NCBI GenBank assembly: GCA_025060415.1
Contig: JANXBT010000001.1
Coordinates: forward strand, 371,546-435,545
DNA length: 64,000 bases
Origin: Candidatus Bipolaricaulota bacterium
GTDB taxonomy: Bacteria > Bipolaricaulota > Bipolaricaulia > Bipolaricaulales > Bipolaricaulaceae
Direction: 5' to 3'
The translations under genes and the position numbers were made by a program. Shown piece by piece: positions 30,907-48,907 of the stretch; position 1 is the first letter of the stretch; each line of letters opens with the position of its first letter. The notes below the pieces were generated by a model. That model was not told the origin of the DNA. It searched no databases and saw only the letters and a program-made list of their open reading frames with translations.

Positions 30907-31371
30907 CTAGGGCAGCACCCACACGCCCAGGAGGAACTCCCGCTCCTCGGGCAGGAGGCAGTAGGTGGCCGTGCAGAGTTGGAAGCGCAGGCGGGCCGGG
31001 AGGAGCCGGAGGCCGGGGGCCGCCCCCTCGGCGATGCGCAGCACCACCACGATGGCCGTCGTCCCCGTGTACACCGCTAAGGCCCGCTTGGCGAAGGCCA
31101 GGTACTTTTCCTGGGCCTCGGGATAGCGGATTTCCTCCACCTGCACGTCGGCAGCGGGTTCCACCGCCAGGACGGTGGGGATGAGGTGAGGCAGGGAGGG
31201 TTGGTGGGCCTGAAGGGCCCAGCCCTCCGGGATCTCCAGGGCCACCACGAGGGCCACGGCGCTGCCGGGCCGGCCTGCAGCCCAGGCCCGGATCGCTACC
31301 CCTTCCTCCCCTGGCTGGGCCTGGGCCAGGAACGCCGCCACCCCTAAGGCCAACCCTAAAAGCCACCTCAT
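30907..31371 (-). CDS. Periplasmic DsbD-alpha-like domain protein
   Basis: The 154-aa protein begins with a signal peptide (MRWLLGLALGVAAFLAQAQ). The Ig-like core ends in RFQLCTATYCLLPEEREFLL, the two-Cys motif of the DsbD N-terminal domain (DsbC-interacting, PF11412-like). The domain is a stand-alone protein here. Its start overlaps the upstream LolA-like/thioredoxin gene by ATGA. The transmembrane electron-passing part of DsbD is missing, so electrons must come from another membrane protein. Confidence 0.82.
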   Translation of the reverse strand: MRWLLGLALGVAAFLAQAQPGEEGVAIRAWAAGRPGSAVALVVALEIPEGWALQAHQPSLPHLIPTVLAVEPAADVQVEEIRYPEAQEKYLAFAKRALAVYTGTTAIVVVLRIAEGAAPGLRLLPARLRFQLCTATYCLLPEEREFLLGVWVLP

Positions 31372-33065
31372 GGGCTCACCCCCTCAAGGATCCTCTGGAT
31401 TTCCCGATAGAGCACGGTTACCCCGCCGTAGCCGCGGATGCGGCCCAGCTCCTTCCCTCCCGGCCCCAAAAAGAGCAACGTGGGCAAGGCCTTGGCCTTG
31501 TAAAGGTCGGCGATCCTTTGGCTTGGCGTGTCCCGCGGATCGCTGAGGTCCACCTTGAAGCGGGGCAGGGGCGCCAGGAGCTCCACGATGGCCGGGGCGC
31601 GGAAGGCCTCCTCCTCCATGGCCAAGCAAGGGGTGCACCAATCCGCGCCGAAATAGAGGACCACCACGGGGCTGGTGCGCAGGGCCTCCTCGAGCTTGCC
31701 GGGGGAGAAGGGCTCCCAGGTGAGGGGCGGAGCCGTGGGCGCAAGCTTCTCCTTGGGGAGCTCAGGCCCCTCCTCCAAGGGGAGCGCAAGGGGACGGCGG
31801 GCGGGGACATCCTTTGGCACGGCGAAGAGTTCGGGATCAAGCTCCACATTTTCCTGGTACTCCAGGACGCGCACGGTGGTGACCCTCCATTCCCACTTCT
31901 GAAGATCTCGCCCTTCGGGCACAAGCATGGGCCGGGTGTATTGGACGACCAGGAGGGTTTCCTGATCGATCCACCACTGGGCTGGGGGGGCTTCGAGGGC
32001 CTCGAACGGCCGGCCGGGGCCCCGCCCCCCCGGCCTTCCCCCTAAGGTTTCGACGGCAATCTCCACGATGGGGGAAAGATTCAAGCCCTCGAAGGCCCTG
32101 GCGCAGACGAAGGCCATGGGCCACTCCCCCTTCAGCCATTGGAGCCCCACCTCAACGGGAATCTCCTCCTTCTCCCACCGGTCCTCCTCGGGGTCGTAGG
32201 TATAGGCCACCCCCTCACGCAGGTCAAAAAGCTCCGCCAGGAGGAGCTCCGAGCCGAACCAAGGGGAGGGCGGGGTGCGCAGCTCCACCCTCAAGTACGG
32301 GGGCTGCCAATAAATCCATTCCTCGAGGGAGCCCATGGCTACCTTTTCCTGTTTGCGCACGAAAAAGGATTTCACCTCCCCGTAGCGCTTCACCACCCTC
32401 TCCACGAGGGCCATGCCCTCTAGGGAGAGTTTGAAGATGCGGGCGATTTCCTCGGGCTTGGGCGGCTGGAAAAGGGCTTCCGCCACCTCCGCTTGGGGCA
32501 AGAACTTCACCAGGGTGTACTCCTGGCGCAAGGGGCCCACCTGATGGCGAACCGCCCAAATGTAGAGGGTTTCGGGATCGATCCAGAGGGTGAGCTCGCC
32601 CTTGGGCGGAAGGGAGGCGCGTAACGCCCAAAACGGCTTTCCCTCCCGCACCTCCTCCTCCACGCTTTCGGGCTGAAGCCCGGCCAGGAACGCCAGCCCC
32701 AGCGCGGCCCAGCTCCAAGGCTCCCTCGCTTCCAGCAGCTCCTCCTGCACCCAGCGGCCGGGCCCAGCCGCGTACCAGCGCACCCGCTTTTCGTAGTCCC
32801 AGACCTCCAAGGGAATCATAAGGGGTTCGAATTCTTCCAGGAGCTCCCGCTCGATGCGCGCTAACGGCGCACGGTACCACACCCGATACGTGATCACGAT
32901 TGCGTGGCCCTGGACGGCCCAGGCCTCCTGGACCTCGGCGTAGAACGCGGGGATCTCCTGGTAAAGGGCGCGGAGTTGGGCGAAGAGGGCGTGGGGGTCG
33001 GGCTGCGCCGGACCAGGGATTCCCAACAAAAGAATAGCCGCCGCGGCAAGAAGAAACGCGCGCAT
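31368..33065 (-). CDS. LolA-like sensor/carrier protein fused to a DsbD-gamma-type thioredoxin
   Basis: The 565-aa protein has a signal peptide (MRAFLLAAAAILLLGIPGPA). Two LolA/RseB-like segments follow (about 20-220 and 220-430; each includes W-x-x-PP-Y/R-lipid-shell features and long beta strands). The C-terminal thioredoxin fold has its active site in VVLYFGADWCTPCLAMEEEA, as in DsbD-gamma. ATG 33065 has AAGGGGG 5 nt upstream. It lies 20 nt after the stop of the left dnaJ copy, so it was natively the next gene of the hrcA-dnaJ operon. It probably works with the DsbD-alpha-like protein to repair periplasmic thiols. Confidence 0.78.
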   Translation of the reverse strand: MRAFLLAAAAILLLGIPGPAQPDPHALFAQLRALYQEIPAFYAEVQEAWAVQGHAIVITYRVWYRAPLARIERELLEEFEPLMIPLEVWDYEKRVRWYAAGPGRWVQEELLEAREPWSWAALGLAFLAGLQPESVEEEVREGKPFWALRASLPPKGELTLWIDPETLYIWAVRHQVGPLRQEYTLVKFLPQAEVAEALFQPPKPEEIARIFKLSLEGMALVERVVKRYGEVKSFFVRKQEKVAMGSLEEWIYWQPPYLRVELRTPPSPWFGSELLLAELFDLREGVAYTYDPEEDRWEKEEIPVEVGLQWLKGEWPMAFVCARAFEGLNLSPIVEIAVETLGGRPGGRGPGRPFEALEAPPAQWWIDQETLLVVQYTRPMLVPEGRDLQKWEWRVTTVRVLEYQENVELDPELFAVPKDVPARRPLALPLEEGPELPKEKLAPTAPPLTWEPFSPGKLEEALRTSPVVVLYFGADWCTPCLAMEEEAFRAPAIVELLAPLPRFKVDLSDPRDTPSQRIADLYKAKALPTLLFLGPGGKELGRIRGYGGVTVLYREIQRILEGVSP

Positions 33066-33085
33066 CGCAACCCCCTTTGCGGGGA

Positions 33086-33706
33086 TTATAGGGCGGCTTC
33101 AGAGCCGGGGCGGCGGGGCGGCGGGGGCTGGGGAAGCCTTTCCGTGAAGGCCTGCAAGAGCCGGCGCTCCTCCCGCCCCAGCCTCTTTGGGATCACCACG
33201 CGCAGCCGCACCTTGAGGTCGCCGCGGCCCTGGGGGCCCGGAAGCCCGCGGTCCCGCAGCACCAGCACCCCATCTGGCTCCGTGCCCTCCGGGACCTCCA
33301 GCTCCGCCTCGCCCTCCAGGGTGGGCACGCGGATCCTCCCCCCAAGGACGAGGGTGGCGTAGTGCACGGGGACCTCCACCCAGAGGTCCCGCCCCTGGCG
33401 GGCGAACAGGGGATGGGGTTGGATTTCCACGACCACGTGGAGGTCCCCGGGCGGCCCGCCGGCCACGCCGGCGTTGCCCTGCCCGGGGAAGACAAGGCGC
33501 GCCCCGTCCTCCACGCCTGCGGGGATGGCGAGGGTGACCTCCGCCCGTTCCCGGGTGCGGCCGCTCCCCTTGCAGCCCGGGCAGGGGGACTCCGGGACCT
33601 CCCCCACGCCCCCGCACTCCGGGCAGGTGCGCACGTTCACGAACGTGCCGAACATGGAGAACTGGCGGTACTCGATGCGGCCGGTGCCGCGGCAGGTGGG
33701 ACAGGC
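33086..33706 (-). pseudogene. dnaJ: 5'-truncated dnaJ copy with the native 3' end
   Basis: The frame keeps only the DnaJ part from the second zinc motif (CPTCRGTGR) on. It continues through [23 protein letters not shown] and the C-terminal client-binding domains to LPQPPPPRRPGSEAAL and the stop at 33086. It lacks the J domain and the first half of the zinc region. Homology to the intact gene stops abruptly at 33705, and the DNA beyond is AT-richer island. It has one residue change at a conserved site ([16 protein letters not shown] in the full gene), consistent with relaxed selection. A short product from ATG 33655 is possible. Confidence 0.88.
33132..33705. repeat. Left direct repeat of the dnaJ 3' region (574 bp)
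   Basis: It pairs with 44554-45127 in the same orientation at a constant offset of 11,422 bp, with no gaps. By eye I count nine mismatches (about 98% identity), only one of which changes the protein. It is the left end of the inserted island. Confidence 0.93.
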
Positions 33707-34251
33707 CTGTTTGATCTCCTCTCTCCCGTTTTGGACACCCGAAAAATACCGTTTTTCCCGGCGCCGTGGCCAGAGAGACCAGCTTTGCGGCGATGGACAA
33801 TATTAAAAGAAGATTGGGATGCCCATGTCGAGGGGCTTTTTAGTCTTATTGGACAGAATTGTAGACATAACGAGGTGTGCGATGTCGTTTGTTTGTTCAG
33901 CATGTAACCAAATGCAGTTGGTTGTCATCGAGAGCAGGGCATCTCTGACGAGTTTTAGATCTCCCGTTTATGCTTGGCTAAGAACAACGCTCCCGTCTTT
34001 CAACTCAGCAGCATTCGGGCAAAGGATTTGTCTTGAAAAAAAGATCTTTGGCGAAGACATTCAAAGAAAAGGGATTCTTCGGCGGAGTTGAAAAGAGCCT
34101 AAAATAGAATTAGCCTAACCCTCACCTCGATTACCGTGTTTCTAACCTCCAATCTCAAAAATTCCACCGCGTTCAAAAGATTGCGTGTGCGGTCTCCCTT
34201 TCCAGTTGCGCCCTCTTTTTTTTATGAAGCAAGGAATAGTTCCTAAAAGTT
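33707..34251. other. Gene-poor left end of the island
   Basis: This is about 545 bp of mixed composition without a convincing gene. Short open frames such as 33819-34091 show no family signature and no good start site. It may hold remnants of whatever recombined with dnaJ. Confidence 0.5.
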
Positions 34252-34285
34252 AAGGGCCGCCAAGTAAGTGTACTTGGCGGCCCTT
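34252..34285 (-). terminator. Strong terminator after the minus-strand GH3 gene
   Basis: A perfect 15-bp stem (34252-34266 with 34271-34285) has the 4-nt loop AGTG. On the minus strand it follows the GH3 stop at 34302 and is followed by a short T-rich stretch. Confidence 0.85.
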
Positions 34286-34301
34286 CTTTTCATCGTTCTT
34301 A

Positions 34302-36194
34302 TCAGTAGCTCAGTCCAAAGCCATAGTCAAACATGGGGTTTTCAAGATCAAAGGGAACGTCTTCCTTCTGAGCCAAGACGGACTCCATACTTGAGGGGAT
34401 TTGGAACGGCAATTTACCAACGGGCTTGAAGCGACCAAAGATCACGTCGAGAAGCGCATTATCTTGGATATCAAAGGTGGCGATAAGTGCATTCACACTT
34501 TTAACAAGTTCGGGTTTAACTACAGTCGGAGCTCGATCAAAATTCAGCACAAGAATTATTGGGATGCCCGCGGAACGGGCTACGTCGATTGGTTTTAGTC
34601 TCTCAGGAGGAATTTCGATTCCACCAACATCGATCTCAATGATTGCAAAATCGGCCTCGTTTGGATTATCTACTACTGTTGCATATTGGCTCAAGACAGC
34701 GGGGTCTACGCCCATAAGGTATGAAATAGTGACGCCAAATCTGGTTACCGTTAGGATGCTTGAAGGTGCATAAACTTTTGGCCTGCGGGCTACAACTTTA
34801 TTAGGTGAAATCTCGAGCACTGCTTCAGGCAAAGGCAAGATTCCATCGTTTTTGAGGAGCACTACAGATTCTAGCTGTGCTTGGTATCCAAGCGCTTTGA
34901 ACTCCGCCGAGCCTACAATTGCTTGAGCCCTAATTGGATCGACATACGGATCTTCAAAGAGTCCAAGCTGGAATTTGAGTCTAAGAATTTTGCGTACGGA
35001 TTGATTTATGCGTTCTTCGGAAACTTTTCCTTCCTTTACAAGCGCGATCAGCGGCTCAGGATCTCTTTCGCCGCCAAACATATCTACACCGGCTTCGAGA
35101 GCCAAGAGATAACGACCCTTAATGTCAAGTGCTGCGAGATCTTCCCGTAGAGGCCCTACTCGAGAAATCACTCCCCAATCCGTACACATAATGATGTCTG
35201 AGAAGCCGAGCTCTACTCGAAGAAGATGGTCAAGATATTTGGAGTAGCAAACGGCACATTTATCCGCAAAGGGGATTCCACTGTAATAACACATGGTTGC
35301 AGGAGCACCTGCTTTGAACGCTGCGATGAAGGGTTTTAAATGATATTCGAAATTGTTTCCGGGATAGGCAAACCAACGCCCAGCACCGCCCGCATGAGGT
35401 CCAGAACCAGGCCAGTGCTTGGGCATCGTAACAATGCTGTTCGGGCCTAAAGTCTCTCCTTGAGCCCCTTTAATAAAGGCGGCAGCCATTGCAGCCGTCA
35501 ACTCTGCGTCTTCGCCAAATGTTTCACCATTGCGTCCCCACCGCGGTTCCGTCATTACGTCAACGATAGGACCGAGGAACATATGGAGGCCAACTGCACG
35601 ATACTCTATAGCCATAACTTCACCAAAACGTTTAGCAAGTTCGAGATTACGTGTTGCAGCAATGCCCAACATACCCTCACGCTTTGGCCAGGCGGAGAAA
35701 TATTGAGTCCCTGTTACATGTCCTATTAGAAGTGCCCCGTGACGAGGATCACTGCTAAAGATTATTGGTATCCCTAAACGGCTTGATTCAGCGACTTCCT
35801 GCATGGCGTTAGTCCATGTTGCGAACATTTGCGGCGGCGATACAGCGTTGGTGAGAATGCATCCCAAACCGACATCTAAAATCCAACGCTTAGCATTAGC
35901 TTTAACCCACTCTAAGGTATGAGGAGCACCTAAGTTAGGGTGCAGCAATTGTCCGATCTTTTCCTCAAGCGTCATTTGGGCCAAAAGGTTTTCCACCCTT
36001 TCGTCTACGGAAAGACGCCAATCCTCGTATGGGTCAAGGACTCCATTTTTATTGAGGTCTTTGAATTTGAAGCCGCCAATTTCAAGAATAGGCACAACTC
36101 GAGCCTCAATTTCCGGTTGTTTTACCGATCCCAACCCATTGACCGCATACAGACCAAAAACAACAAGCACTCCAAACAAGATCTTCTTTAACAT
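34302..36194 (-). CDS. Secreted GH3 family glycosidase (beta-glucosidase/xylosidase type)
   Basis: The 630-aa protein starts at ATG 36194 behind AAGGAGG. The signal peptide is MLKKILFGVLVVFGLYAVNG. An EF-hand-like calcium loop (DLNKNGVLDPYE) precedes the GH3 barrel (RVENLLAQMTLEEKIGQLLH, TEPRWGRNGETFGEDAELTA, MPKHWPGSGPHAGGAG). The nucleophile Asp lies in IIMCTDWGVISR. The second, alpha/beta domain follows (QLESVVLLKNDGILPLPEAV), ending in the GH3 tail FDYGFGLSY. It probably cuts beta-linked oligosaccharides outside the membrane. The exact sugar is unknown. It is divergent from the ROK regulator. Confidence 0.92.
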   Translation of the reverse strand: MLKKILFGVLVVFGLYAVNGLGSVKQPEIEARVVPILEIGGFKFKDLNKNGVLDPYEDWRLSVDERVENLLAQMTLEEKIGQLLHPNLGAPHTLEWVKANAKRWILDVGLGCILTNAVSPPQMFATWTNAMQEVAESSRLGIPIIFSSDPRHGALLIGHVTGTQYFSAWPKREGMLGIAATRNLELAKRFGEVMAIEYRAVGLHMFLGPIVDVMTEPRWGRNGETFGEDAELTAAMAAAFIKGAQGETLGPNSIVTMPKHWPGSGPHAGGAGRWFAYPGNNFEYHLKPFIAAFKAGAPATMCYYSGIPFADKCAVCYSKYLDHLLRVELGFSDIIMCTDWGVISRVGPLREDLAALDIKGRYLLALEAGVDMFGGERDPEPLIALVKEGKVSEERINQSVRKILRLKFQLGLFEDPYVDPIRAQAIVGSAEFKALGYQAQLESVVLLKNDGILPLPEAVLEISPNKVVARRPKVYAPSSILTVTRFGVTISYLMGVDPAVLSQYATVVDNPNEADFAIIEIDVGGIEIPPERLKPIDVARSAGIPIILVLNFDRAPTVVKPELVKSVNALIATFDIQDNALLDVIFGRFKPVGKLPFQIPSSMESVLAQKEDVPFDLENPMFDYGFGLSY

Positions 36195-36298
36195 TTTTCC
36201 TCCTTCTTTAAGTTCGAGACCTGCTTTACGGCCAGACGACCAGCTCCTTCCACATTTTCTGTAAGATCGCGCGACCACCTCCTTCCTTCTCTTAAGCA

Positions 36299-36327
36299 AT
36301 AATACCGACCCAACGTCCGCCTGTCAA
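36299..36327 (-). promoter_or_regulatory. Promoter of the minus-strand GH3 gene
   Basis: TTGACA (36327-36322) and TATTAT (36304-36299) with a 17-nt spacer form a near-ideal sigma-70 promoter. The leader to ATG 36194 is about 100 nt. Confidence 0.8.
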
Positions 36328-36380
36328 GTCCCCCCGGTACACCGCGGGAAAACTGTCGGAAATGTAACTCTCTTGGAGCC

Positions 36381-36406
36381 TTGCGCACAATCCTTGAAGT
36401 GCGCAA
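36381..36406. promoter_or_regulatory. Likely ROK operator
   Basis: The perfect 8-bp inverted repeat TTGCGCAC-N10-GTGCGCAA ends 2 bp before the -35 element of the ROK gene and lies about 54 bp upstream of the divergent GH3 promoter. This is a good site for autoregulation and local control. Confidence 0.65.
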
Positions 36407-36408
36407 CC

Positions 36409-36437
36409 TTGACAAGGGGCCAAAATCCAAGTATACT
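36409..36437 (+). promoter_or_regulatory. Promoter of the ROK regulator operon
   Basis: TTGACA (36409-36414) and TATACT (36432-36437) are 17 nt apart. ATG 36447 begins 10 nt after the -10 element without a ribosome site, which implies a leaderless mRNA. Confidence 0.8.
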
Positions 36438-36446
36438 TTATTCGGA

Positions 36447-37613
36447 ATGAGAACAAAGTCACAGAGGTTGGTGCTAAACCCAAAGGCCATGGGTGATCAT
36501 CACCGTTCTCTTCTCCTCCGCTATTTGCGCCTTAATGGGCCGACCTCTCGTGCTAACCTAGCTAGATCCTTAGGGTTGGCCCCATCGGTCGTGTCCCGGT
36601 TGGCGCGAGAGTTGCTTGCCGAGGGGTGTTTAGTAGAACGAGAGTGCATAAAAACGTCAGTCGGACGCAAACCTACACTTCTAGCTTTTAATCCTAATTA
36701 TCGCACAGTGATCGGCGCTCATATTCAAACCGATAAATTGGAATGTGCACTTCTCAATCTAGGTGGTTATGTGCTTGCCCGCTGGGAATCCATCATCGAA
36801 AGAGAGCCCATGCCGGAACAAGTTTTAGAACTCCTCTTCAAAGCCGTGAACGCCCTTCGGCAGGAGAATACGTTAGGGATAGGGGTAGCTATTTCTGGTC
36901 TCATTGATGCGAAAACGGGAAAAATCGTGTTCTCTCCCGTCTTGCAGTGGGAGGGAATTAACATTCGTGAGGTCTTGGAAAAAGGCTGCACTCTTCCGGT
37001 GTATGTGGAGAATGACGCGAATGCTTTGGCCGCCGCCGAACTTCTCCATGGCGCAGGCCGCAATTATAAAGACTTCCTGTGCGTAATGATAAGCGATGGT
37101 TTAGGGTGCGGCGTGGTTCTAGGAGGACGTCTATATCGAGGAACGCTGGGAGGGGCTGGAGAGCTGGGGCACACCACAATTGATCTTGGTGACGACGCCC
37201 CTATTTGTCGCTGTGGCGAACAAGGTTGTCTTGAAGAATTTTGTTCCAAGCGGGCCCTGAACAGAGAAGCTCAGCGCCTTGGGCTAAAGGATTGGCGGGT
37301 ACTAGGAGAAATGGCACGTATGGGTGACCCCTATGCTCAGAAAGCTTTCCTTCGTTTTGGCTACTACCTAGGGGTGGGCTTGAAAAACGCGGTGAATCTC
37401 CTAAACCCAGAAGCAGTGATCATCGGCGGTGATCTGACGGAGTTCGCAGACCTCTTTTTAAACACCGTGAAAGAAGTGGTACGCAAACATTGTTTTCCTG
37501 GCGGACGGACTGCTCCGGAGATCATGCTTTGGCAAGTGGGTAAGGAAGGTTTCCTGATAGGTGCAGGCGGCTTAGTCGTCGAGGAGTTTTTGAGCTCGCC
37601 CATACGGACGTAA
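36447..37613 (+). CDS. ROK-family transcriptional regulator
   Basis: The 388-aa protein has an N-terminal MarR-like winged helix (LLRYLRLNGPTSRANLARSL, GLAPSVVSRLARELLAEG) and a ROK sugar-kinase-like domain: IGVAISGLIDAKTGKIVFSP, VYVENDANALAAAELLHGAG, LGGAGELGHTTIDLG and the zinc motif CRCGEQGCLEEFCS. It belongs to the NagC/XylR type, which binds a sugar and releases DNA. ATG 36447 was chosen because of the promoter just upstream. A longer frame to 36381 would start inside the operator and promoter. Confidence 0.92.
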   Translation: MRTKSQRLVLNPKAMGDHHRSLLLRYLRLNGPTSRANLARSLGLAPSVVSRLARELLAEGCLVERECIKTSVGRKPTLLAFNPNYRTVIGAHIQTDKLECALLNLGGYVLARWESIIEREPMPEQVLELLFKAVNALRQENTLGIGVAISGLIDAKTGKIVFSPVLQWEGINIREVLEKGCTLPVYVENDANALAAAELLHGAGRNYKDFLCVMISDGLGCGVVLGGRLYRGTLGGAGELGHTTIDLGDDAPICRCGEQGCLEEFCSKRALNREAQRLGLKDWRVLGEMARMGDPYAQKAFLRFGYYLGVGLKNAVNLLNPEAVIIGGDLTEFADLFLNTVKEVVRKHCFPGGRTAPEIMLWQVGKEGFLIGAGGLVVEEFLSSPIRT

Positions 37614-37630
37614 TATGGAAGGAGGTCAGA

Positions 37631-38392
37631 ATGCGGGCGCTAAAGTGGTTGGTTGGTTTGCTGGCTATTTGGGTCTCTGCTGGACAAGCACTGGAGGCCA
37701 TAGCTTGGCGTGCTCCCGGTCCAGTCGTAATCGACGGAGCGCTGAACGAATGGATTACCTCCGATCCCATTATTATAAAAGACGCAAAACAAGCAATCGT
37801 TGCCCCTTATCTTTGGGGAGGCTCCCTGGATTGCAGTGTCACTGTATACGTGATGTGGGATGAGGAAAATCTTTACATTGCTGCGGAGATATTCGATGAC
37901 GTTCCCTTTACAGCTCGCGCAGGCTTTCGTCCGGATGAGGCCGACAGCCTTGGTGTTTACTTGAGCACAAATCCCCAGGCCAATCCTGTTCGTAAGCACT
38001 ATGAAGCTACCGATTTTCGAATTTTGCTGATGATCGACGGTTATGAATTTAACACTGCTATTGATCGTGATATGCTTACTGATCCCAAAGGAATTGAAAC
38101 GGCAGGGATGTATGGGGATGAACAAGTTTTGTCTGGTTATGAGGCCGCTGCTGTACCCACTAAACGGGGATGTATCTTTGAGGCCAAGATTCCATTCAAA
38201 GCTTTATCTAATGAGCAAATCCCTGTGTTTGTGCCAAGGGACGGTGTTAAAGTTGGCTTTAACATCGAAATCAATGATATCGATATGCCATGCCCGGGCA
38301 TCGGTGCCAAAACTTTAGCCTGGACTGGTACAGAGGCTATCCGGCAGAATCCTAGTGAATGGGGCGTCCTCATCTTTAGGATAAAAAGATAG
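37631..38392 (+). CDS. Secreted CBM9/DOMON-like carbohydrate-binding protein
   Basis: The 253-aa protein starts behind AAGGAGG with a signal peptide (MRALKWLVGLLAIWVSAGQA). The body is one CBM9-like beta-sandwich: IDGALNEWITSDPIII, VYVMWDEENLYIAAEIFDDV and DEADSLGVYLSTN, then CIFEAKIPFKAL and KVGFNIEINDID. Such domains bind soluble or chain-end sugars. It is not fused to an enzyme, so it may help capture oligosaccharides for the importer encoded next. Confidence 0.78.
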   Translation: MRALKWLVGLLAIWVSAGQALEAIAWRAPGPVVIDGALNEWITSDPIIIKDAKQAIVAPYLWGGSLDCSVTVYVMWDEENLYIAAEIFDDVPFTARAGFRPDEADSLGVYLSTNPQANPVRKHYEATDFRILLMIDGYEFNTAIDRDMLTDPKGIETAGMYGDEQVLSGYEAAAVPTKRGCIFEAKIPFKALSNEQIPVFVPRDGVKVGFNIEINDIDMPCPGIGAKTLAWTGTEAIRQNPSEWGVLIFRIKR

Positions 38393-38411
38393 GAAGTAAG
38401 AGGAGGAAGCC

Positions 38412-39731
38412 ATGGCTATGCGAATCTTCATGGTGTGGGTGGTTGTAAGTTCGCTCGTTTACTCTCTAGGTGTAGCTCAGGATATCGCTGCCATTGTCGG
38501 CAATGCCAAGGCAACCGGAGTGTTGAATGTGTATCACTGGTGGACCGCTGGTGGAGAGAAAGAGGCAATCGAGGCTGCATTGGAGATTTTCCGCGCTCGT
38601 TATCCTCGGGTTCAGGTACTATCCAACGCTATCCCTGGCGGGGCTGGCGGCGCCATGGTGATGAAAGTGAAAATTCTCATGGTGACAGGCAATGCTCCGG
38701 AGACTTTCCAGGCCCATCCCGGTTTTGAAATACAACCCTATACCGATGCCAACCTGCTCCTTCCTTTGGATGGGCTTTGGGCTTACGGCAACATTGCGGA
38801 GCGGCTTATCCCTGGAATTGCTGAGTTGTGCCGAGTTAATGGCACATACTATGCTGTTCCCATCGGGATTCACAAGTGCAACGTGATCTGGTATAACAAA
38901 CGCTTGTTTGATGAATGCGGAGTTCAGCCCCCCGGGGAACCCGTAACCTGGGAGGAGTTCTGGGCGCTTTGCGAGGAGCTGGCGCGGAAGCTACCCCCCG
39001 GGAAATATGTGTTGGACCTCGGCGATCGGCAGGGTTGGACGGCCACGCACGCGTTTGAAGCCCTCATGATGGGGGTGAGCCCACACATTTACGAAAATTT
39101 CATCAACGGAGTGGCCACAGAGGAAGAGATCGCCAAAGTTCTGGACGTGTACAAGAAGTTTTTGCGTTACGTAGCCCCCGATCATACAGCCAGGCTGTGG
39201 TACGAAACAGCCGGTGAGGTCTACGCCGGTAATATCGCCATGTACCTTATGGGCGACTGGATGAAGGCTTACTTTGCTTCCCGAGGTTGGAAATATGGGA
39301 GGGATTACGGGGCCTTTTCTGTGCCCGGAACTTCCGACAAGTTTGGGGTTTGCATCGATACCTTTGTTGTACCGCGGGGTTCCGCTAACCGCGAGAACGG
39401 GTTAAGGTGGGCTTATCTTTGCGCAGACCCTGAACTTCAATTGCTTTTTACGCAACGCAAAGGTTCTATCTCCCCTTATCGAGATTTCCCCGTTGATCTT
39501 TACGATGAGCTGACCCTCGGTTTCTATCGTCAGCTCATGTCCCCGGAGACCCTCGTTTATCCGAGCTTTGCTCATGGTACCGCCCTCCCTTGGGAGGTCC
39601 TCATGGATCTCCATAGCCGCATTACCGATTTCACCACCAGCGCTGATCCTGATGTACACCGGTTTGCTCGGCTCATTGCCCAGTCGCTCAAGGAGGCAGG
39701 CGTGCAACCGCGGTGGGACATCGTGCGCTAG
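38412..39731 (+). CDS. Sugar ABC transporter substrate-binding protein (family 1)
   Basis: The 439-aa protein has a signal peptide (MAMRIFMVWVVVSSLVYSLG) and the MalE/UgpB-type fold: VYHWWTAGGEKEAIEAALEI, YAVPIGIHKCNVIWYNKRLF, WEEFWALCEEL and MYLMGDWMKAYF. No lipobox Cys is visible at the cleavage site. It is the first gene of the importer operon, with AGGAGG before ATG 38412. A GH3 gene lies between it and the permeases. Confidence 0.92.
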   Translation: MAMRIFMVWVVVSSLVYSLGVAQDIAAIVGNAKATGVLNVYHWWTAGGEKEAIEAALEIFRARYPRVQVLSNAIPGGAGGAMVMKVKILMVTGNAPETFQAHPGFEIQPYTDANLLLPLDGLWAYGNIAERLIPGIAELCRVNGTYYAVPIGIHKCNVIWYNKRLFDECGVQPPGEPVTWEEFWALCEELARKLPPGKYVLDLGDRQGWTATHAFEALMMGVSPHIYENFINGVATEEEIAKVLDVYKKFLRYVAPDHTARLWYETAGEVYAGNIAMYLMGDWMKAYFASRGWKYGRDYGAFSVPGTSDKFGVCIDTFVVPRGSANRENGLRWAYLCADPELQLLFTQRKGSISPYRDFPVDLYDELTLGFYRQLMSPETLVYPSFAHGTALPWEVLMDLHSRITDFTTSADPDVHRFARLIAQSLKEAGVQPRWDIVR

Positions 39732-39740
39732 GAGGTCTAT

Positions 39741-41663
39741 ATGTGCCTTGCCAACGTGTTTGTCCTGTGTTTCTGTTTGGTGGCCTTTGCTCTAGCCGCT
39801 GAGCCACCCGTTGTGCAGACACGCTACAAGCCGCTCTTGTGCGTGGACGGCTACCTTTTTCGCGATCTAAACGCTAATGGCCAGCTCGATGTTTACGAAG
39901 ATTGGCGACGTTCTGTGGATGAGCGTGTAGAAGATTTGCTCGCTCGAATGACCTTAGCCGAAAAAGTGGCGCAGATGATGCATCCCACTTTCATCCCCCG
40001 TCCAGATGGGTCGCCTCCACCATTCATGGAAAAGTGGTGCCGCGACTTGCAAATCGGGTTTGTATTGGTTCGGGACCTTCCTAGTGCCCGAGCTGCTGCG
40101 GAGTGTATGAATCGGCTCCAAGAGTGGTGCGAGCAATCGCGCTTGGGCATTCCTATAGTGGTAAGCATGGACTCCATTCATGGCTTAAGTTATGTAAATG
40201 GCGGTATCGTTTATCCTCATAACCTAGGGCTCGCGGCCATAGGGGATCTCAATTTAGTGAGAGCTTTAGTAGAAGCCGCCCGAAAAGAGCATCTTGCAGT
40301 GGGTGTGCGCATGACGCTTTCACCCAATGCCGATCTAGCTACCGAACCTCGGTGGGGGCGCGTGTACGAGTGTCCGGGTGAGGACGCCAACTTTGCTGCT
40401 GAATTCGTGCGCGTATATGTAGAAGCTTACCAAAATGGAACCGCGTTGAACAGGGACTCTATAATTTGTTGTGTTAAACACTTTCCTGGCGCTGGTCCGC
40501 AAATGGAAGGGGTGGACATGGCTCCCATCGTCTCGACTCCTGAAACCCTGCCACTTCATCTTCTGCCGTTTAAGGCGGCTATTGAAGTAGGTGTAGCGAG
40601 CGTTATGCCTTATTACAGTATTCCCTTGGCCCTGGATACCATGGCCGCGCTGGGTTCTAGAAAAACTTTACAGGACTTGTTGCGCCAAAACCTTGGTTTT
40701 ACTGGCTTCATTAACACTGACTGGGGGATGCAGTTTGGCATCCGCCAAGCAGGGATGTTTTGGGGGCGGGAGATCTCCAACGATGAAGCGCTTATCATTG
40801 GTATCGAACAGGCTGAGGTAGATGTCGTAGGTGGGGCTTCGCCTCGGGATATAAGCGATGTCGTGCGCTTGGTGGAGATTGGGAAAATCCGTGTTGAGCG
40901 AATTAATGAATCTGTACGTCGCATTCTTCGCGTCAAGTTTATGCTTGGAATTTTCGAGAACCCCTATGTCGACCCCTCTCATGCTGAAAAAATCGTCGGT
41001 TGCCCCGCGCATCAAGCGCTCTCTTTAGAGGCCGCCCGGCGTTCCCTCACGCTTATAAAAAACACCGGGATTCTGCCCCTGCGAAACGTGAATTCCATTC
41101 TGGTAGCAGGTTTGCGTGCTGGGGACGTGGATAGTCTGACCGGAGGGTGGACATCGAAGCAAACCGGGCTCACGATCGTCGAAGCCATACGGGCTTTAGC
41201 GGGCGAGGGGGTTCGTGTGCACTACGTCGCGGAAAACGTGGAGGAGGCCAGGGTTCGGGCCGCTGGTAGCGATGTTGCCATCGTGGTGGTGGGTGAACCG
41301 GCGTACGTGCATAACCCTCCTTGGGGAGCGAGCACCTTGGAGCTTACTTCATCGCAACAAAAGCTCCTGGAAGCTGTCCATGAAACGGGAACCCCTCTTG
41401 TTGTTGTGGTGTTGTTGGCGCGCCCTTATATTTTGACGTGGTGCGCGGAAAAAGCTGATGCCATAATCATCGCCTACTTGCCGGGTACGCAAGGTGCCCA
41501 AGCCATCGCAGAGGTTTTGTTTGGTCGCGTAAACCCTCAAGGTCGGCTTCCTATCCAGTTGCCTCGCAACATGGAGCAAGTGCGCAACCAGCGTAGCGAT
41601 CTCCCCGCGGACCTTACCGACCCGCTTTACGAACGCGGGTTTGGCCTCAGCTACAGTGGGTGA
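39741..41663 (+). CDS. Second GH3 family glycosidase, secreted
   Basis: The 640-aa protein is a paralog of the GH3 at 34302. It has a signal peptide (MCLANVFVLCFCLVAFALAA), an EF-hand-like loop (DLNANGQLDVYE), the GH3 barrel (RVEDLLARMTLAEKVAQMMH, TEPRWGRVYECPGEDANF, CVKHFPGAGPQMEGVD), nucleophile Asp in FINTDWGMQFGI, and the tail LYERGFGLSYSG. It differs from its paralog in the subsite loops, so the pair may handle different linkages. It lies inside the importer operon, so its products are probably imported. Confidence 0.92.
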   Translation: MCLANVFVLCFCLVAFALAAEPPVVQTRYKPLLCVDGYLFRDLNANGQLDVYEDWRRSVDERVEDLLARMTLAEKVAQMMHPTFIPRPDGSPPPFMEKWCRDLQIGFVLVRDLPSARAAAECMNRLQEWCEQSRLGIPIVVSMDSIHGLSYVNGGIVYPHNLGLAAIGDLNLVRALVEAARKEHLAVGVRMTLSPNADLATEPRWGRVYECPGEDANFAAEFVRVYVEAYQNGTALNRDSIICCVKHFPGAGPQMEGVDMAPIVSTPETLPLHLLPFKAAIEVGVASVMPYYSIPLALDTMAALGSRKTLQDLLRQNLGFTGFINTDWGMQFGIRQAGMFWGREISNDEALIIGIEQAEVDVVGGASPRDISDVVRLVEIGKIRVERINESVRRILRVKFMLGIFENPYVDPSHAEKIVGCPAHQALSLEAARRSLTLIKNTGILPLRNVNSILVAGLRAGDVDSLTGGWTSKQTGLTIVEAIRALAGEGVRVHYVAENVEEARVRAAGSDVAIVVVGEPAYVHNPPWGASTLELTSSQQKLLEAVHETGTPLVVVVLLARPYILTWCAEKADAIIIAYLPGTQGAQAIAEVLFGRVNPQGRLPIQLPRNMEQVRNQRSDLPADLTDPLYERGFGLSYSG

Positions 41664-41681
41664 AAAGGGGAGGGTGGTGGG

Positions 41682-42581
41682 ATGAGCCAGAATTTTCGCC
41701 GCAAGGGGATAGGTCATTGGCTCTCTCGCCACCCTTTCATAATCTTAGCTCTCCCCCTTGGCCTTGTAGGATACTTTGTATACGGTGGGATGTTTTGGAA
41801 TGCTTGGGTTTCCTTTACGAATTGGCGAGGATTAACCCCCACTTATGCTTTTTATGGATTTCAAAATTATTCGCGGTTGTTTGGGAGCGCTGTCTTCGCC
41901 GTCGCCTTAAAGAACACGCTTTTGCTTTTCTTGACTATTCCCGTTTGCATTGTCGTAGGGTTCATTTTGGCTGTTCTATTGGACCAAAACATTCGAGGTA
42001 CGGGGATTTTCAGAAATCTCTTGCTTCTTCCTTATGCACTTTCGTTTGTGGTAACAGGCACGATCTGGGCTTGGATGTACAACCCGTCTAAAGGAATTTT
42101 AAACGCCCTGTTGCGACAGATCGGTTTGGCCCGTTGGCAGGGGATGTGGCATACCAGTCAAGAAACTGTAATGTACGCGATTGTTCTAGCTTTGGTGTGG
42201 CAATTTTCTGGTTATGCCGCGCTTGTCCTGTTGGCAGGCATCCGTTCCGTACCAGAAGTGCAAATCAAAGCGGCTTTGCTAGAAGGTGCCACGCGGTTTC
42301 GTATTTACCGAAAAATCATCGTTCCTCAGCTGAAAGGGGCGGTCATGACGGTGGTGATAGTTATCATGATGTATGCTTTGCGCGCGTTTGATTTTATTTG
42401 GGTTCTCACTGGTGGAGGTCCAGGCTATGCCTCTCATACGCTTTCTATTATGATGTATAAGGAAGCCTTCCAGGCCACACGTTTCGCCTATGCCGCGGCT
42501 ATTGCAAACGTCTTGTTAGGGCTTACTTTAATCCTTGTCCTTCCCTATCTTTATTGGATGCACAGGAGAGCCGGGCAATGA
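41682..42581 (+). CDS. Sugar ABC transporter permease (MalF-like)
   Basis: The 299-aa protein has six predicted helices. The EAA loop that contacts the ATPase is LLEGATRFRIYRKIIVPQLK. The N-terminal GMFWNAWVSFTNWRGLTPTY is usual for MalF/UgpA-type subunits of oligosaccharide importers. Its stop overlaps the next start by ATGA. Confidence 0.92.
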   Translation: MSQNFRRKGIGHWLSRHPFIILALPLGLVGYFVYGGMFWNAWVSFTNWRGLTPTYAFYGFQNYSRLFGSAVFAVALKNTLLLFLTIPVCIVVGFILAVLLDQNIRGTGIFRNLLLLPYALSFVVTGTIWAWMYNPSKGILNALLRQIGLARWQGMWHTSQETVMYAIVLALVWQFSGYAALVLLAGIRSVPEVQIKAALLEGATRFRIYRKIIVPQLKGAVMTVVIVIMMYALRAFDFIWVLTGGGPGYASHTLSIMMYKEAFQATRFAYAAAIANVLLGLTLILVLPYLYWMHRRAGQ

Positions 42582-43399
42582 GCACTCTAGTGGGACGCGG
42601 TCTCGTAGTTACGGTGCTTGTTGTGGTAACGCTGCTCTACCTTCTCCCCCTATGGGGAGCATTTACCACCTCTTTAAAAACCGACGAGGAAATAGACCTT
42701 ACTTCGCCGATCGCTTGGCCCCAACGTCCCACCGCTTCTGGATATATTGGTGCTTTTAACCACCTAAAGCGCGCACTATTGAATAGTGTCCTGATAACCG
42801 TCGGGGGAACATTTGGATCGGTCGGGTTAGGAGCCATTTGCGGCTATGTGCTGGCCTTGCATAGTTTTCCTGGGGCCAACCTTGTCTTTTTGCTGCTCGC
42901 TGCGGGCATCTTTTTGCCCTTCCAGGCTATCTTAATCCCGCTTTTCCAAACTGTCCGCGCATTGAGGTTGTACGATACCATCGGGGGGATTGTCTTGGCA
43001 CATACGGCTTATGGGATACCCATGTGCGCGGTGATGTTTAAAACCTTTTATTCTGAAGTGCCAAAGGCGCTGGTTCGCCAAGCTTTAACTGATGGAAGCA
43101 GTCCATGGAGGTTTTATTGGAGAGTTGTGCTTCCAAGTACTAAATTGGCCACGGTGACTATACTAATTTTCCAATTCACCTCTATTTGGAACGAGCTCCT
43201 ATTTGGTTTGGTGCTGGGTGGCCCCCGTTCGATGCCCGCCACCGTGGCGCTTAATAACCTAGTAGGAACCTTAGCGGCTCAATGGAATATCCAAATGGCA
43301 GGCTCGCTTCTTCTCGCCGTCCCAGTGCTCATTGTATACGCTTTCCTTGGTCGCTACCTCGTACGAGGTTATATGGCGGGAGCGGTAACGGCCGTTTGA
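42578..43399 (+). CDS. Sugar ABC transporter permease (MalG-like)
   Basis: The 273-aa protein has six helices and the EAA loop QALTDGSSPWRFYWRVVLPS. The N-terminal LLYLLPLWGAFTTSLKTDEE is typical of MalG/UgpE. It pairs with the MalF-like protein. Confidence 0.92.
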   Translation: MSTLVGRGLVVTVLVVVTLLYLLPLWGAFTTSLKTDEEIDLTSPIAWPQRPTASGYIGAFNHLKRALLNSVLITVGGTFGSVGLGAICGYVLALHSFPGANLVFLLLAAGIFLPFQAILIPLFQTVRALRLYDTIGGIVLAHTAYGIPMCAVMFKTFYSEVPKALVRQALTDGSSPWRFYWRVVLPSTKLATVTILIFQFTSIWNELLFGLVLGGPRSMPATVALNNLVGTLAAQWNIQMAGSLLLAVPVLIVYAFLGRYLVRGYMAGAVTAV

Positions 43400-43414
43400 A
43401 GAAAGGAGGAGACG

Positions 43415-44569
43415 ATGGCTTCCGTCACCGTAAAAAATCTCTTCGTCTCTTACCATCGCGGCAGGACTATAGCTGTGGATCATGTTTCTTTCGCTGTAGA
43501 AGATGGGAAATTTTGTGTACTTTTGGGACCATCTGGGTGCGGGAAAACCACCATCCTTCATTGCATCGCTGGACTGATTCGTCCTACATCCGGGGAGATC
43601 ATCATTGGTGAACGTGTTGTCACTTCTACGGAGAAAAACATCTTTGTACGTCCTCAAGAGCGGAACGTAGCTATGGTTTTCCAGGAATACGCTCTCTATC
43701 CAAACTTGACGGTGCGTGAAAACCTAGCGTTTCCTCTAGAGTGCCAAAGGCTGCCTAAAAAGGAGATCGCGGCTCGGGTGCAGTCTGTTGCTGAATTGCT
43801 AGGGATTACTGATCTCCTCCATCGCAGACCGGCCCAGCTTTCTGGTGGGCAACGCCAGCGTGTCGCCTTGGGGCGGGCTTTAGTGCGGCAGCCCACTGTT
43901 TTTCTCCTTGATGAGCCCTTGGGAAACCTTGATGCCCAGCTTCGAGTACAAGTCAGATATGAACTCAAGCGTATTCAGCGCCAGCTACGCGCCACCATGA
44001 TTTATGTAACGCATGATCAAACCGAGGCTTTGACCCTTGCCGATAAAATTGTGCTTTTGAGGAGCGGAAAGATCGAGCAAGAGGGCAGTCCTCAAGAAAT
44101 GTACGAGAAACCTGCCAACCTTTTTGTGGCTGGATTTATTGGTTCCCCGCCCATGAATTTTATCGAGGGCCAGGTCTTAACCTGTGAGGGCATGCTTCTG
44201 ATCGATGCTGGAATTTTTAAAGTGCGTGCAGAAGCTTTGGGCATTGCCAAAAATCTTGCACCCGGAACCAAAGTCATGTTAGGGGTTCGCCCGGCGGACA
44301 TTAATGCTCGACCTTCCTCCCCCCAGGATCTTCTCCTCCCTGCTATTGTGGACCTGCTTGAACCCTTGGGCGATAGCGCTGTTGTTCATGTTCTAAGTGG
44401 AAACTTTAAGTTTACCGCCAAATGGGAAGGAGGGTCTCTAAAACCTGGGGGTTTAGTTTCTTTGTTTTTAAACCCGCGAAAAATTCACGTTTTTACTTTG
44501 CCCGATGGGATGAGGGTATCTAAAATTGAGGACGGTGCGGCGGGCCGGGCGGAGGAAGCCTTTCCGTGA
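43415..44569 (+). CDS. Sugar ABC transporter ATPase (MalK/UgpC type), 3' end in the dnaJ repeat
   Basis: The 384-aa ATPase has Walker [11 protein letters not shown]-loop [12 protein letters not shown], signature [15 protein letters not shown], Walker [12 protein letters not shown], switch His in [14 protein letters not shown] and a C-terminal TOBE/regulatory domain. The family homology ends near [10 protein letters not shown]. The last residues ([11 protein letters not shown]) are read from the junction and the dnaJ repeat, and the stop lies inside the repeat. It overlaps the dnaJ end by 50 bp, tail to tail. Confidence 0.92.
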
Positions 44570-45646
44570 AGGCCTGCAAGAGCCGGCGCTCCTCCCGCCC
44601 CAGCCTCTTGGGGATCACCACGCGCAGCCGCACCTTGAGGTCGCCGCGGCCCTGGGGGCCCGGAAGCCCGCGGCCCCGCAGCACCAGCACCCCGTCCGGC
44701 TCCGTGCCCTCCGGGACCTCCAGCTCCGCCTCGCCCTCCAGGGTGGGCACGCGGATCCTCCCCCCGAGGACGAGGGTGGCGTAGTGCACGGGGACCTCCA
44801 CCCAGAGGTCCCGCCCCTGCCGGGCGAACAGGGGATGGGGTTGGATTTCCACGACCACGTGGAGGTCCCCGGGCGGCCCGCCGGCCACGCCGGCGTTGCC
44901 CTGCCCGGGGAAGACAAGGCGCGCCCCGTCCTCCACGCCTGCGGGGATGGCGAGGGTAACCTCCGCCCGTTCCCGGGTGCGGCCGCTCCCCTTGCAGCCC
45001 GGGCAGGGGGACTCCGGGACCTCCCCCACGCCCCCGCACTCCGGGCAGGTGCGCACGTTCACGAACGTGCCGAACATGGAGAACTGGCGGTACTCGATGC
45101 GGCCGGTGCCGCGGCAGGTAGGGCAGGTCCGCAGACCCGTGCCCGGCGTCAGGCCGCTCCCCCCGCAGCGGGAACAGGCCGCGTAGCGGGGGAGGGAAGC
45201 GCGCAGGGTCGTGCCGAAGGCAGCGTCCTCCAGGGTGAGGCGCACGCGGTACTCCAGGTCCTCCCCGCGCTGGGCCCGGCTGGCGGGGCGGGCCCGCCGG
45301 CCCTCCCCAAAGAAGAGGTTGAAGATCTCCTCGAACGCGGAGGGGCCGAAGAACTCCTCGAAGGCCTCGCGGGTGCGGCGGAATCCTTCAGGCCCGAAGT
45401 CCACGCTCTGCTCCGGCCCCACGTGCCCAAAGCGGTCGTACTGGGCTCGCTTCACCGGGTCCGAAAGCACCTCGTAGGCCTCGGCGATCTTGCGGAACTT
45501 CCGCTCCGCCTCCTTTTTGTCGCCTTTATAGACGTCGGGGTGGTACTGCTTGGCGAGCCGGCGGAAGGCCCGCTTGATCTCCTCTTGGGTGGCGTTGCGG
45601 GGAACGCTCAGGATCTCGTAGTAGTCCTCCGCAGGGGGCATGGGGA

Positions 45647-45650
<4 letters not shown>
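44520..45650 (-). CDS. dnaJ: Chaperone DnaJ with a hybrid C-terminal end
   Basis: The 376-aa co-chaperone has a J domain ([20 protein letters not shown] and YHPDVYKG with the HPD motif), a G/F-like linker, four zinc motifs ([32 protein letters not shown]) and the two client-binding domains. GTG 45650 overlaps the dnaK stop by GTGA. ATG 45641 is an alternative start. The native tail (PQPPPPRRPGSEAAL, kept in the left copy) is replaced by [10 protein letters not shown], whose last codons and stop are island DNA. The core is complete, so it is probably functional. Confidence 0.95.
44554..45127. repeat. Right direct repeat of the dnaJ 3' region (574 bp)
   Basis: Partner of 33132-33705. This copy lies inside the intact dnaJ gene, and its outer (5' dnaJ) side continues into native gene sequence, while its inner side ends at the island junction. 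Confidence 0.93.
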
Positions 45651-47874: not shown

Positions 47875-48881
47875 GGCGCACCCCCGCACTGGAGGAGGAG
47901 GGACTGGAGGCGGCTGGCGAGGTAGCGCACGGCGGAGAAGGCGCGGGCGTAGTCGAGCCAGAGGGGGCCGGCCACGCCCAGCACCCCCTGGCCGGGGAAG
48001 TAGGGGGCGGTGACGAGGGTGAGCTCCCGCAGTTCCGGGACGAGGTCCTCCCCCACGTGGGCCAGGACCCCTTCCCGGCCGGCCCGCAGCTCCGCGATCA
48101 GCGCGGCGAACCCGCGCTCATCCTCCATGAGCCGCAGGAGGTCGCGCACCCGGGCCAGGGCCCACTCCGGGGAGTGGGCGCCGAGCTCGGAGAGAAGCTG
48201 GGGCCAGCCCTCCGCGAAGAGGGGGAGGGCGGGCGCGTCCGCGGTGAGCTCCTGGAGGAGGCGGTAGGCGGTGTGCACGGCGCGGCCCTGCCAGGGCTCG
48301 GGCGGGGGGGTCGGGGCCGGGGCCCGCAGCCGGGCTGCCAGCCAGGCCTCGGCCTCCCGCTCCTCCTCCGGGCTCAGGTCGGCGGGGACGGAGACCAGGC
48401 GGGCCTCCAGGACGCCGAAGGCGGAGAAGGTGGCGGCCAAGGCCCTTCCGGGCTCCACCGCCCGCAGGACCACCCCCCGGCAGGGGAGGGCCTCCCCCTT
48501 GGGGGGGATGACGAACCCCAGCTGTCCGGTCATGGCGGAGAGGAGGAGGGCGGTGCGGCGCAGGAGCTCGGCCAGGGGGGGCAGGCCGGGCCGGGGGTGG
48601 GGCTCCGCGGGCAGGCGCTCGGCCTTGGCGTCCAGTTCGGCCACGGCCAGGAGCCACTGGGCGAAGAACCGGAACCCCTGCACCGTGGGGACCCGGCCGG
48701 CGGAGACGTGGGGCTTGTAGAGGTAGCCCTCCTCCTCCAGGGCGTGGAGCTCGTTGCGGATGGTGGCGGGGCTCAGGCGGTGGCGGTAGACCCGCACGAT
48801 CTCCTGGGAGGAGACGGGACGGCGGGTGTGGATGTAGCGGTCCACCACCTCCGCCAGGATGCGCGCCCTCCGGCCCTTCAT
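47871..48881 (-). CDS. hrcA: Heat-shock repressor HrcA
   Basis: The 336-aa repressor has an N-terminal winged helix (RYIHTRRPVSSQEIVRVYRH, LSPATIRNELHALEEEGYLY, KPHVSAGRVPT) and a GAF-like C-terminal domain. ATG 48881 lies at the edge of its own CIRCE operator. TTG 48887 is an alternative start. It is first in the heat-shock operon and would repress it until chaperones are titrated by unfolded protein. Confidence 0.95.
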   Translation of the reverse strand: MKGRRARILAEVVDRYIHTRRPVSSQEIVRVYRHRLSPATIRNELHALEEEGYLYKPHVSAGRVPTVQGFRFFAQWLLAVAELDAKAERLPAEPHPRPGLPPLAELLRRTALLLSAMTGQLGFVIPPKGEALPCRGVVLRAVEPGRALAATFSAFGVLEARLVSVPADLSPEEEREAEAWLAARLRAPAPTPPPEPWQGRAVHTAYRLLQELTADAPALPLFAEGWPQLLSELGAHSPEWALARVRDLLRLMEDERGFAALIAELRAGREGVLAHVGEDLVPELRELTLVTAPYFPGQGVLGVAGPLWLDYARAFSAVRYLASRLQSLLLQCGGAP

Positions 48882-48907
48882 TAGCAATCACCCCCTGGAA
48901 GTGCTAA
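48881..48907. promoter_or_regulatory. CIRCE operator
   Basis: TTAGCAATC-N9-AAGTGCTAA (48881-48889, spacer, 48899-48907) matches the CIRCE consensus TTAGCACTC-N9-GAGTGCTAA at 16 of 18 arm positions. It covers the likely start of transcription and touches the hrcA start codon. Confidence 0.88.

Follow-up and report, generated by a model that had tools for sequence, protein, structure and literature searches.

The DNA analysed here, referred to as the window, is a stretch of 64,000 nucleotides from contig JANXBT010000001.1 of a Candidatus Bipolaricaulota bacterium (genome G000, 1.35 Mb in 35 contigs). Its minus strand carries two overlapping genes related to DsbD, one encoding a fusion of two LolA-like domains with a thioredoxin domain and the other a stand-alone DsbD-alpha. 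DsbD is normally one membrane protein, which takes electrons from cytoplasmic thioredoxin to periplasmic clients; its three parts hand them on in a fixed order, from beta to gamma to alpha and from there to clients. The features of the pair are:

31368-33065, minus strand: fusion gene, 565 amino acids, with a signal-like segment, LolA-like domain 1, LolA-like domain 2 and a DsbD-gamma-like thioredoxin domain
33006-33065, minus strand: N-terminal hydrophobic segment of the fusion (residues 1-20), from its sequence a probable Sec signal peptide without lipobox Cys
32430-33002, minus strand: LolA-like domain 1 (residues 22-212), from the AlphaFold2 model and VIA-align
31800-32429, minus strand: LolA-like domain 2 (residues 213-422), from profile comparison with domain 1, the model showing a similar order of helices and strands
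31377-31733, minus strand: DsbD-gamma-like thioredoxin domain (residues 445-563), from structure match and PDB profile search
31626-31637, minus strand: CTPC redox motif (C477-C480) within WCTPC, read from the sequence
31368-31371, minus strand: ATGA shared by the stop of the fusion and the start of alpha, read from the sequence
30907-31371, minus strand: stand-alone DsbD-alpha (nDsbD-like), 154 amino acids, with a signal-like N-terminus, from PF11412, model and Foldseek
30958-30975, minus strand: Cys pair C133-x4-C138 of alpha, kept in 4/4 stand-alone copies reaching it

The AlphaFold2 model of the fusion has a mean pLDDT of 79.6 and falls below 50 in parts of residues 2-18, 304-330 and 424-434. 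When it was aligned to known structures with VIA-align, residues 20-213 matched 4mxt, a LolA-like protein from Bacteroides, with Z 16.9 and 2.9 Å over 173 residues, which assigns domain 1 to the LolA fold, a half-open beta-barrel with a helical lid; structure prediction, the check proposed in the initial annotation, was thus in its favour. RseB/MucB are among the top Foldseek matches of the model and RseB 3m4w_D aligns to domain 1 with Z 13.4, LolA carriers matching this domain as well or better. Domain 2 (213-425) is a homologue of domain 1 by hhalign (probability 99.6, E 7e-24, 17% identity); its assignment is one of profile similarity, since the fold-search rows cover domain 1 and not domain 2, and its part of the model is weak at 304-330. 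A chance resemblance of the LolA part was considered, and is ruled out by the fold match together with the internal repeat. Pfam gives only thioredoxin matches below threshold on the 565 residues and no match to the LolA families PF03548 and PF17131, and the fusion copy of genome G017 scores 13.3 bits against Pfam LolA, with a cut-off of 30. The fusion profile also picked up a protein of genome G057 (E 2e-7, positions 3-189), which passes the Pfam cut-offs for both LolA_like and LolA. Alignment to the group of three that contains it gave a probability of 92.4 for domain 1 and of only 6.7 for domain 2.

The C-terminal part of the fusion (residues 445-558) aligns best to DsbD-gamma, with Z 16.3, 1.8 Å and 113 residues for 1vrs_E and Z 15.6 for 1uc7_A. 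Scores are lower for DsbH (14.1) and E. coli thioredoxin 2trx (12.8), and reach 13.7 at most for other thioredoxins. A profile search of PDB with this domain placed Thermus thioredoxin 2lst_A first (E 1.6e-17) and DsbD 4ip1_A second (E 4.9e-17). The active-site cysteines C477 and C480 are present, and the CxPC is kept in all ten fusion copies that reach this stretch. In the fusion, hydrophobicity over 19-residue stretches peaks in the one beginning at residue 3, and a short basic and hydrophobic N-terminus is common to the fusion and alpha, although in alpha another 19-residue stretch is more hydrophobic. As modelled, then, the fusion is an exported protein with two homologous LolA-like domains followed by a thioredoxin domain whose predicted structure is closest to DsbD-gamma, which agrees with the two LolA/RseB-like segments and C-terminal DsbD-gamma first read from the letters.

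The 154-residue protein had likewise been called a stand-alone DsbD-alpha, and it matches DsbD_N (PF11412) with 35.5 bits over a cut-off of 25. Its model has a pLDDT of 88, with nDsbD 3pfu as the best Foldseek match (E 7.5e-6); comparison of the alpha profile with PDB sequences did not retrieve nDsbD, the best hits being antibody chains at E 0.83. Among 100 Bipolaricaulota genomes, PF11412 has 24 matches in 23 genomes, four of them outside a DsbD frame (G000, G017, G030 and G037). The family is not exhaustive, the alpha of the DsbD of G002 having been missed by it and found by protein search. Each of the four stand-alone alpha genes of the phylum in which the cysteines are intact is found immediately 3' of a fusion. 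The ATGA overlap seen in the window recurs as a 4-base overlap in G030 and G037, with an 11-bp gap in G017, so that it is found in three of four pairs. The only stand-alone alpha seen without a fusion in the 100 genomes is a remnant in G003. In that genome an alpha gene cut before the Cys pair (L071 5525-5824) stands without a fusion and faces ABC-transporter genes that adjoin this locus in other genomes. The sequence stops at a contig end in G007 and, in G017, at the locus next to dnaJ. We considered whether a stand-alone alpha might be unique to the fusion system; it is not, as two genomes from outside the phylum, G103 and G105, have short DsbD_N-like genes that no LolA fusion accompanies.

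A profile made from six fusions detects the fusion in eight of the 100 genomes (G000, G005, G007, G011, G017, G030, G035 and G037), all of them among the 40 genomes of the family of the window. Two tandem fusions are present in G030 and G037 and two fusion loci in G017, and copies share only 24-35% overall identity with the window protein. Two fusions are incomplete: that of G007 reaches a contig end after its first 155 residues, and that of G011 is split in two frames (L069 9606-11272), which, in this single-contig genome, is either a pseudogene or an assembly error. Left out of the count are G018, G085 and five genomes in which LolA-like parts are joined to other types of redoxin; G018 has a double LolA-like protein of 385 amino acids (L018 1244-2401) that ends before any thioredoxin domain, and a complete DsbD. 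Among 389 relatives searched, of which some 290 belong outside the phylum, no fusion turned up beyond it; at most three candidates per genome, with E 1e-12 or better, entered the scoring, a scheme that rare or diverged fusions may escape. The outside matches listed fall within residues 429-561, the thioredoxin part. When 84,980 species genomes were scanned with one eight-residue motif, 340 stretches and 64 related loci were recovered, and the five loci spanning both the LolA and thioredoxin parts are those of G005, G037, G030, G017 and G035.

When the thioredoxin domains of 10 fusions were placed in a tree with 34 of DsbD type, the fusions came out as one clade (support 98/93) with two subclades, indicating a single origin. 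The window copy falls together with that of G005 and with the second copy of each tandem in G030 and G037. A recent break-up of the resident DsbD is unsupported, the fusion clade being separate from, and not sister to, the gamma of the DsbD of G000. The 34 domains were taken from 46 loci with a scored domain; the 12 omitted are near-copies (L109, L110, L111, L115, L116, L124, L125 and L137), fragments (L117 and L123) and weak cases (L089 and L098). Rows of G100, G105, G106 and G111, which the script grouped as Bipolaricaulota, come from outside the phylum.

Instead of one polypeptide with alpha, an eight-transmembrane beta and gamma, the locus has two open reading frames, neither with a DsbD_TM match. 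The membrane DsbD-beta, which the initial annotation reported as absent, is therefore missing from the locus and not from the genome, where a complete alpha-beta-gamma DsbD of 569 amino acids is encoded by a separate gene (L001 961-2670), together with a CcdA-like protein of 487 amino acids (L002 700-2163) in which an N-terminal CPYC segment precedes the DsbD_TM part. All eight fusion carriers have a DsbD_TM match above the cut-off of 27.1, with best matches from 28 to 156 bits. The window genome is the only carrier in which a complete DsbD was seen, none being found in the other seven. In the family DsbD occurs in 17 of 40 genomes, counting G031, where it is cut by a contig end, and G008, the 401-residue DsbD of which (L020 685-1890) has alpha and gamma and a shortened beta that matches only about 75 model positions.

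Since gamma and alpha are coupled and secreted, and beta-type proteins are encoded elsewhere in all carriers, a split relay is the simplest reading. We consider it moderately probable that the pair is the periplasmic half of a disulfide-reducing relay of the DsbD type, divided between two secreted proteins, and that the LolA-like pair binds a hydrophobic ligand or client. A membrane protein of the DsbD_TM type from another locus (in most carriers a CcdA-like protein, or else the complete DsbD) would act in trans and pass electrons to the gamma-like CxPC; the gamma-like domain of the fusion would then reduce the stand-alone DsbD-alpha made from the overlapping gene, and alpha would reduce envelope clients. 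By binding a lipidated client or a hydrophobic ligand, the two LolA-like domains would bring the reductase to one particular envelope protein; most likely they supply a hydrophobic pocket that selects the client or the place at the membrane. An Omp85 match just over the cut-off in the window genome makes an outer membrane likely, in line with the cautious view of this point in PMC6092417. No VKOR match was found. Since the window genome also encodes a separate LolA_like protein (128 bits), the fusion need not be the only LolA-fold carrier of the cell.

Several observations weigh against the split relay. The complex of gamma with alpha and the transfer of electrons between them are predictions from sequence. 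A second aligner gave nearly equal scores for the alpha fold to the N-terminal domain of ScsB (Z 10.4), sialidase Ig-like domains (10.2) and nDsbD (10.1), a tie with unrelated domains that makes the fold alone indecisive and leaves the identity of alpha to Pfam and the Cys pair. The fusions of G005, G011 and G035 have a convergent gene behind them and no alpha. The tree held DsbD-type thioredoxins only, so that it does not itself prove the gamma identity. In the seven carriers without DsbD the best DsbD_TM matches are weak (28-51 bits), and such matches also occur in most non-carriers. Fusion and DsbD are found together in one of the 40 family genomes (Fisher p 0.06 one-sided, 0.11 two-sided, from a table compiled by hand in which G018, with its double LolA-like protein, and G003, with its alpha remnant, count as non-carriers), and mutual exclusion is only suggestive; a tree-aware test on a DnaK tree of 26 genomes had only three supported independent pairs. 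We dropped mutual exclusion with DsbD as an argument, because after correction for ancestry nothing is left to test. Finally, the absences are read from draft assemblies, and completeness of the carriers is 81-99%.

The pair had also been described as natively following dnaJ and as part of a heat-shock operon. The features that bear on these points are:

33085-33090, minus strand: TATAAT, 25 nt upstream of the fusion start, a -10-like element that shares bases with the stop codon of the dnaJ remnant
33114-33705, minus strand: duplicate 3' part of dnaJ, 592 bp, 97% identical to 44533-45127 (580 of 595 alignment columns)
44520-45650, minus strand: intact dnaJ, behind hrcA (Pfam-tested), grpE and dnaK
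48881-48907, no strand assigned: CIRCE-like inverted repeat abutting the hrcA start, with 2 mismatches (0 in 100 shuffles)

Adjacency to dnaJ is confirmed in relatives, where the fusion is the next gene after dnaJ, in the same orientation, in G005, G007 (cut), G011 (split), G017 and G035, but not in the window, where the dnaJ 3' duplicate precedes the fusion and the intact gene lies about 11.5 kb away, past a sugar-uptake island. This island (33706-44519, 10.8 kb) has about 50% G+C against ~65-74% around it. Its genes are, by Pfam, a GH3 (34302-36299), a ROK regulator, a CBM9 protein and sugar ABC genes and, by eye, a second GH3-like gene (39741-41663). The same sugar locus stands behind dnaJ in G006 (L232, 77-81% identity). 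From its sequence, the island with its dnaJ repeat looks like the product of recombination with the dnaJ region of a relative, which left dnaJ intact. Fusion and dnaJ are on different contigs in G030 and G037.

The TATAAT is found at the dnaJ-fusion junction in four of six dnaJ-linked copies (G000, G005, G007 and G017) and at none of 21 examined dnaJ ends without a fusion behind, a set to which the dnaJ ends of G030 and G037 and that of the intact window dnaJ belong. The hexamer is rare: it occurs 21 times in 522,360 strand-bases, and 7 of 195 gene starts have one within 60 nt. Three of the four junctions come from one genus, and in three of four it overlaps the dnaJ stop codon. A full sigma-70 promoter was not found in 32900-34400 and no -35 was recognised in the window. 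The junction TATAAT is thus a -10-like element and putative promoter, and its contrast with fusion-free dnaJ ends makes independent transcription of the fusion, from a promoter of its own, likely. Of the proposed place in the heat-shock operon, the dnaJ adjacency in five relatives and the CIRCE-like site before hrcA stand, yet in the window the island cuts the fusion off from that operon and TATAAT precedes it.

These results bear on a reading of the fusion as an RseB-like envelope sensor, as first proposed, in which the LolA-like pair detects lipid or a mislocalised lipoprotein, the thioredoxin domain reports or repairs thiol damage and heat-shock control comes through dnaJ. RseB/MucB among the top Foldseek matches, the position behind dnaJ in five of eight carriers and the CIRCE-like site all speak for it; the junction TATAAT in four of six dnaJ-linked copies, the displacement of the fusion from dnaJ in the window and to another contig in G030 and G037, and the equal or better match of LolA carriers speak against it, as does the lack of a regulatory partner among the neighbouring genes, the sole place where one was looked for. 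A stress sensor is possible, but we do not favour it and hold it improbable. The fusion could also be a client, that is, a DsbC/TlpA-type isomerase or reductase that grips its substrate with the LolA-like pair and acts on it with the thioredoxin domain; alpha would keep this domain reduced, and would itself be reduced by the CPYC segment in the CcdA-like protein. E. coli DsbD-alpha reduces DsbC and CcmG, complexes of alpha with proteins of this kind appear among the structure matches of the alpha model, the CcdA-like protein of the window genome does begin with a CPYC segment before its DsbD_TM part, and domains of the TlpA/AhpC type are found in other LolA-like fusions of the phylum. Nevertheless, the thioredoxin domain of the fusion is structurally closest to DsbD-gamma, the usual donor of alpha, and we regard a client role as unlikely.

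It is unlikely, in our judgement, that the fusion is a LolA-type carrier with its own reductase, whose double cradle would bind lipidated or hydrophobic envelope proteins in transit while gamma keeps their cysteines reduced and free alpha draws on gamma for other clients; if true, this would be a redox-proofreading step inside lipoprotein traffic. That the genes are chance neighbours or relics, pieces of an old, broken-up DsbD that persist without joint function, would fit the patchy distribution (8/40 family genomes), the split copy of G011 and the truncated alpha kept without a fusion in G003. We consider it very unlikely, given a CxPC in every copy reaching it despite the low identity, the 4-base overlap kept in three of four pairs and the lack in the phylum of any fusion-less stand-alone alpha but the G003 remnant.

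Compared with DsbD (alpha PF11412, beta PF02683, thioredoxin-like gamma), the locus has both periplasmic domains, each with its Cys pair, and couples them genetically; it differs in having them on two separate secreted proteins, without beta, and gamma fused to two LolA-like domains. The pair is a variant of the DsbD kind; no description of a LolA/DsbD-gamma fusion was found in a literature search of partial coverage. In Helicobacter pylori, according to PMC4460558, the beta-only membrane protein CcdA HP0265 has a separate periplasmic thioredoxin-like partner, HP0377. CcdA systems thus resemble the split relay in that a beta-only membrane protein serves separate periplasmic proteins of the thioredoxin fold, while the partners proposed here are a DsbD-alpha and a LolA-like scaffold bearing a gamma-type domain. 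Domain 1 shares its fold with LolA and LolA_like (PF03548, PF17131) and with DUF2092, which PMC4520260 relates to LolA; unlike in LolA, a carrier of lipoproteins through the periplasm, the domain is duplicated and joined to a thioredoxin domain, and the window protein has no Pfam LolA match. RseB/MucB, which bind an anti-sigma factor of the RseA/MucA type, are similar in placing a LolA-like domain in a periplasmic protein with more than one domain, whereas the second domain of the fusion is another LolA-like copy, followed by the thioredoxin domain.

In this pair the outer parts of DsbD are separate, soluble and genetically coupled, and one sits on a scaffold of the lipid or lipoprotein-carrier type. 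If the relay works as proposed, free proteins can pass electrons in the order known from DsbD, and a fused binding domain can address an envelope reductase to its clients. The split DsbD arms hint at an unusual supply of reducing power to the cell envelope in some members of this uncultured phylum.

Around the locus, the DUF362 gene behind alpha in the window (Pfam-tested) has a homologue directly after dnaJ in G004, which represents the empty site of the window. A convergent Ham1/RdgB-looking gene adjoins dnaJ in 11 of 21 non-carriers with a located dnaJ (partial in G009 and G022), a label Pfam-tested only in G035. The fusion lies between dnaJ and this gene in G035 and G011, and in G030 the fusion-alpha pair faces it although dnaJ is on another contig.

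LolA-like N-termini joined to a thioredoxin-superfamily domain also occur in six other Bipolaricaulota genomes (G085, G014, G019, G025, G027 and G033), where the domain is of the TlpA/redoxin type and not DsbD-gamma and, in five, the redoxin domain has no CxxC. Three types of such fusion in one phylum (gamma-like, TlpA-like and CxxC-less redoxin) suggest a functional link. One LolA-like domain precedes the AhpC/redoxin-type domain without CxxC in G014 (L193 1617-2729), G025 (L194 4681-5793), G033 (L195 3819-4931), G027 (L196 14-1117) and G019 (L197 2492-3595), Pfam having been tested for L194 and L197. In G085, which also has a complete DsbD, two LolA-like genes (L073 2-865 and L074 2-877) run into a TlpA-type domain, with WCRP before the contig end.

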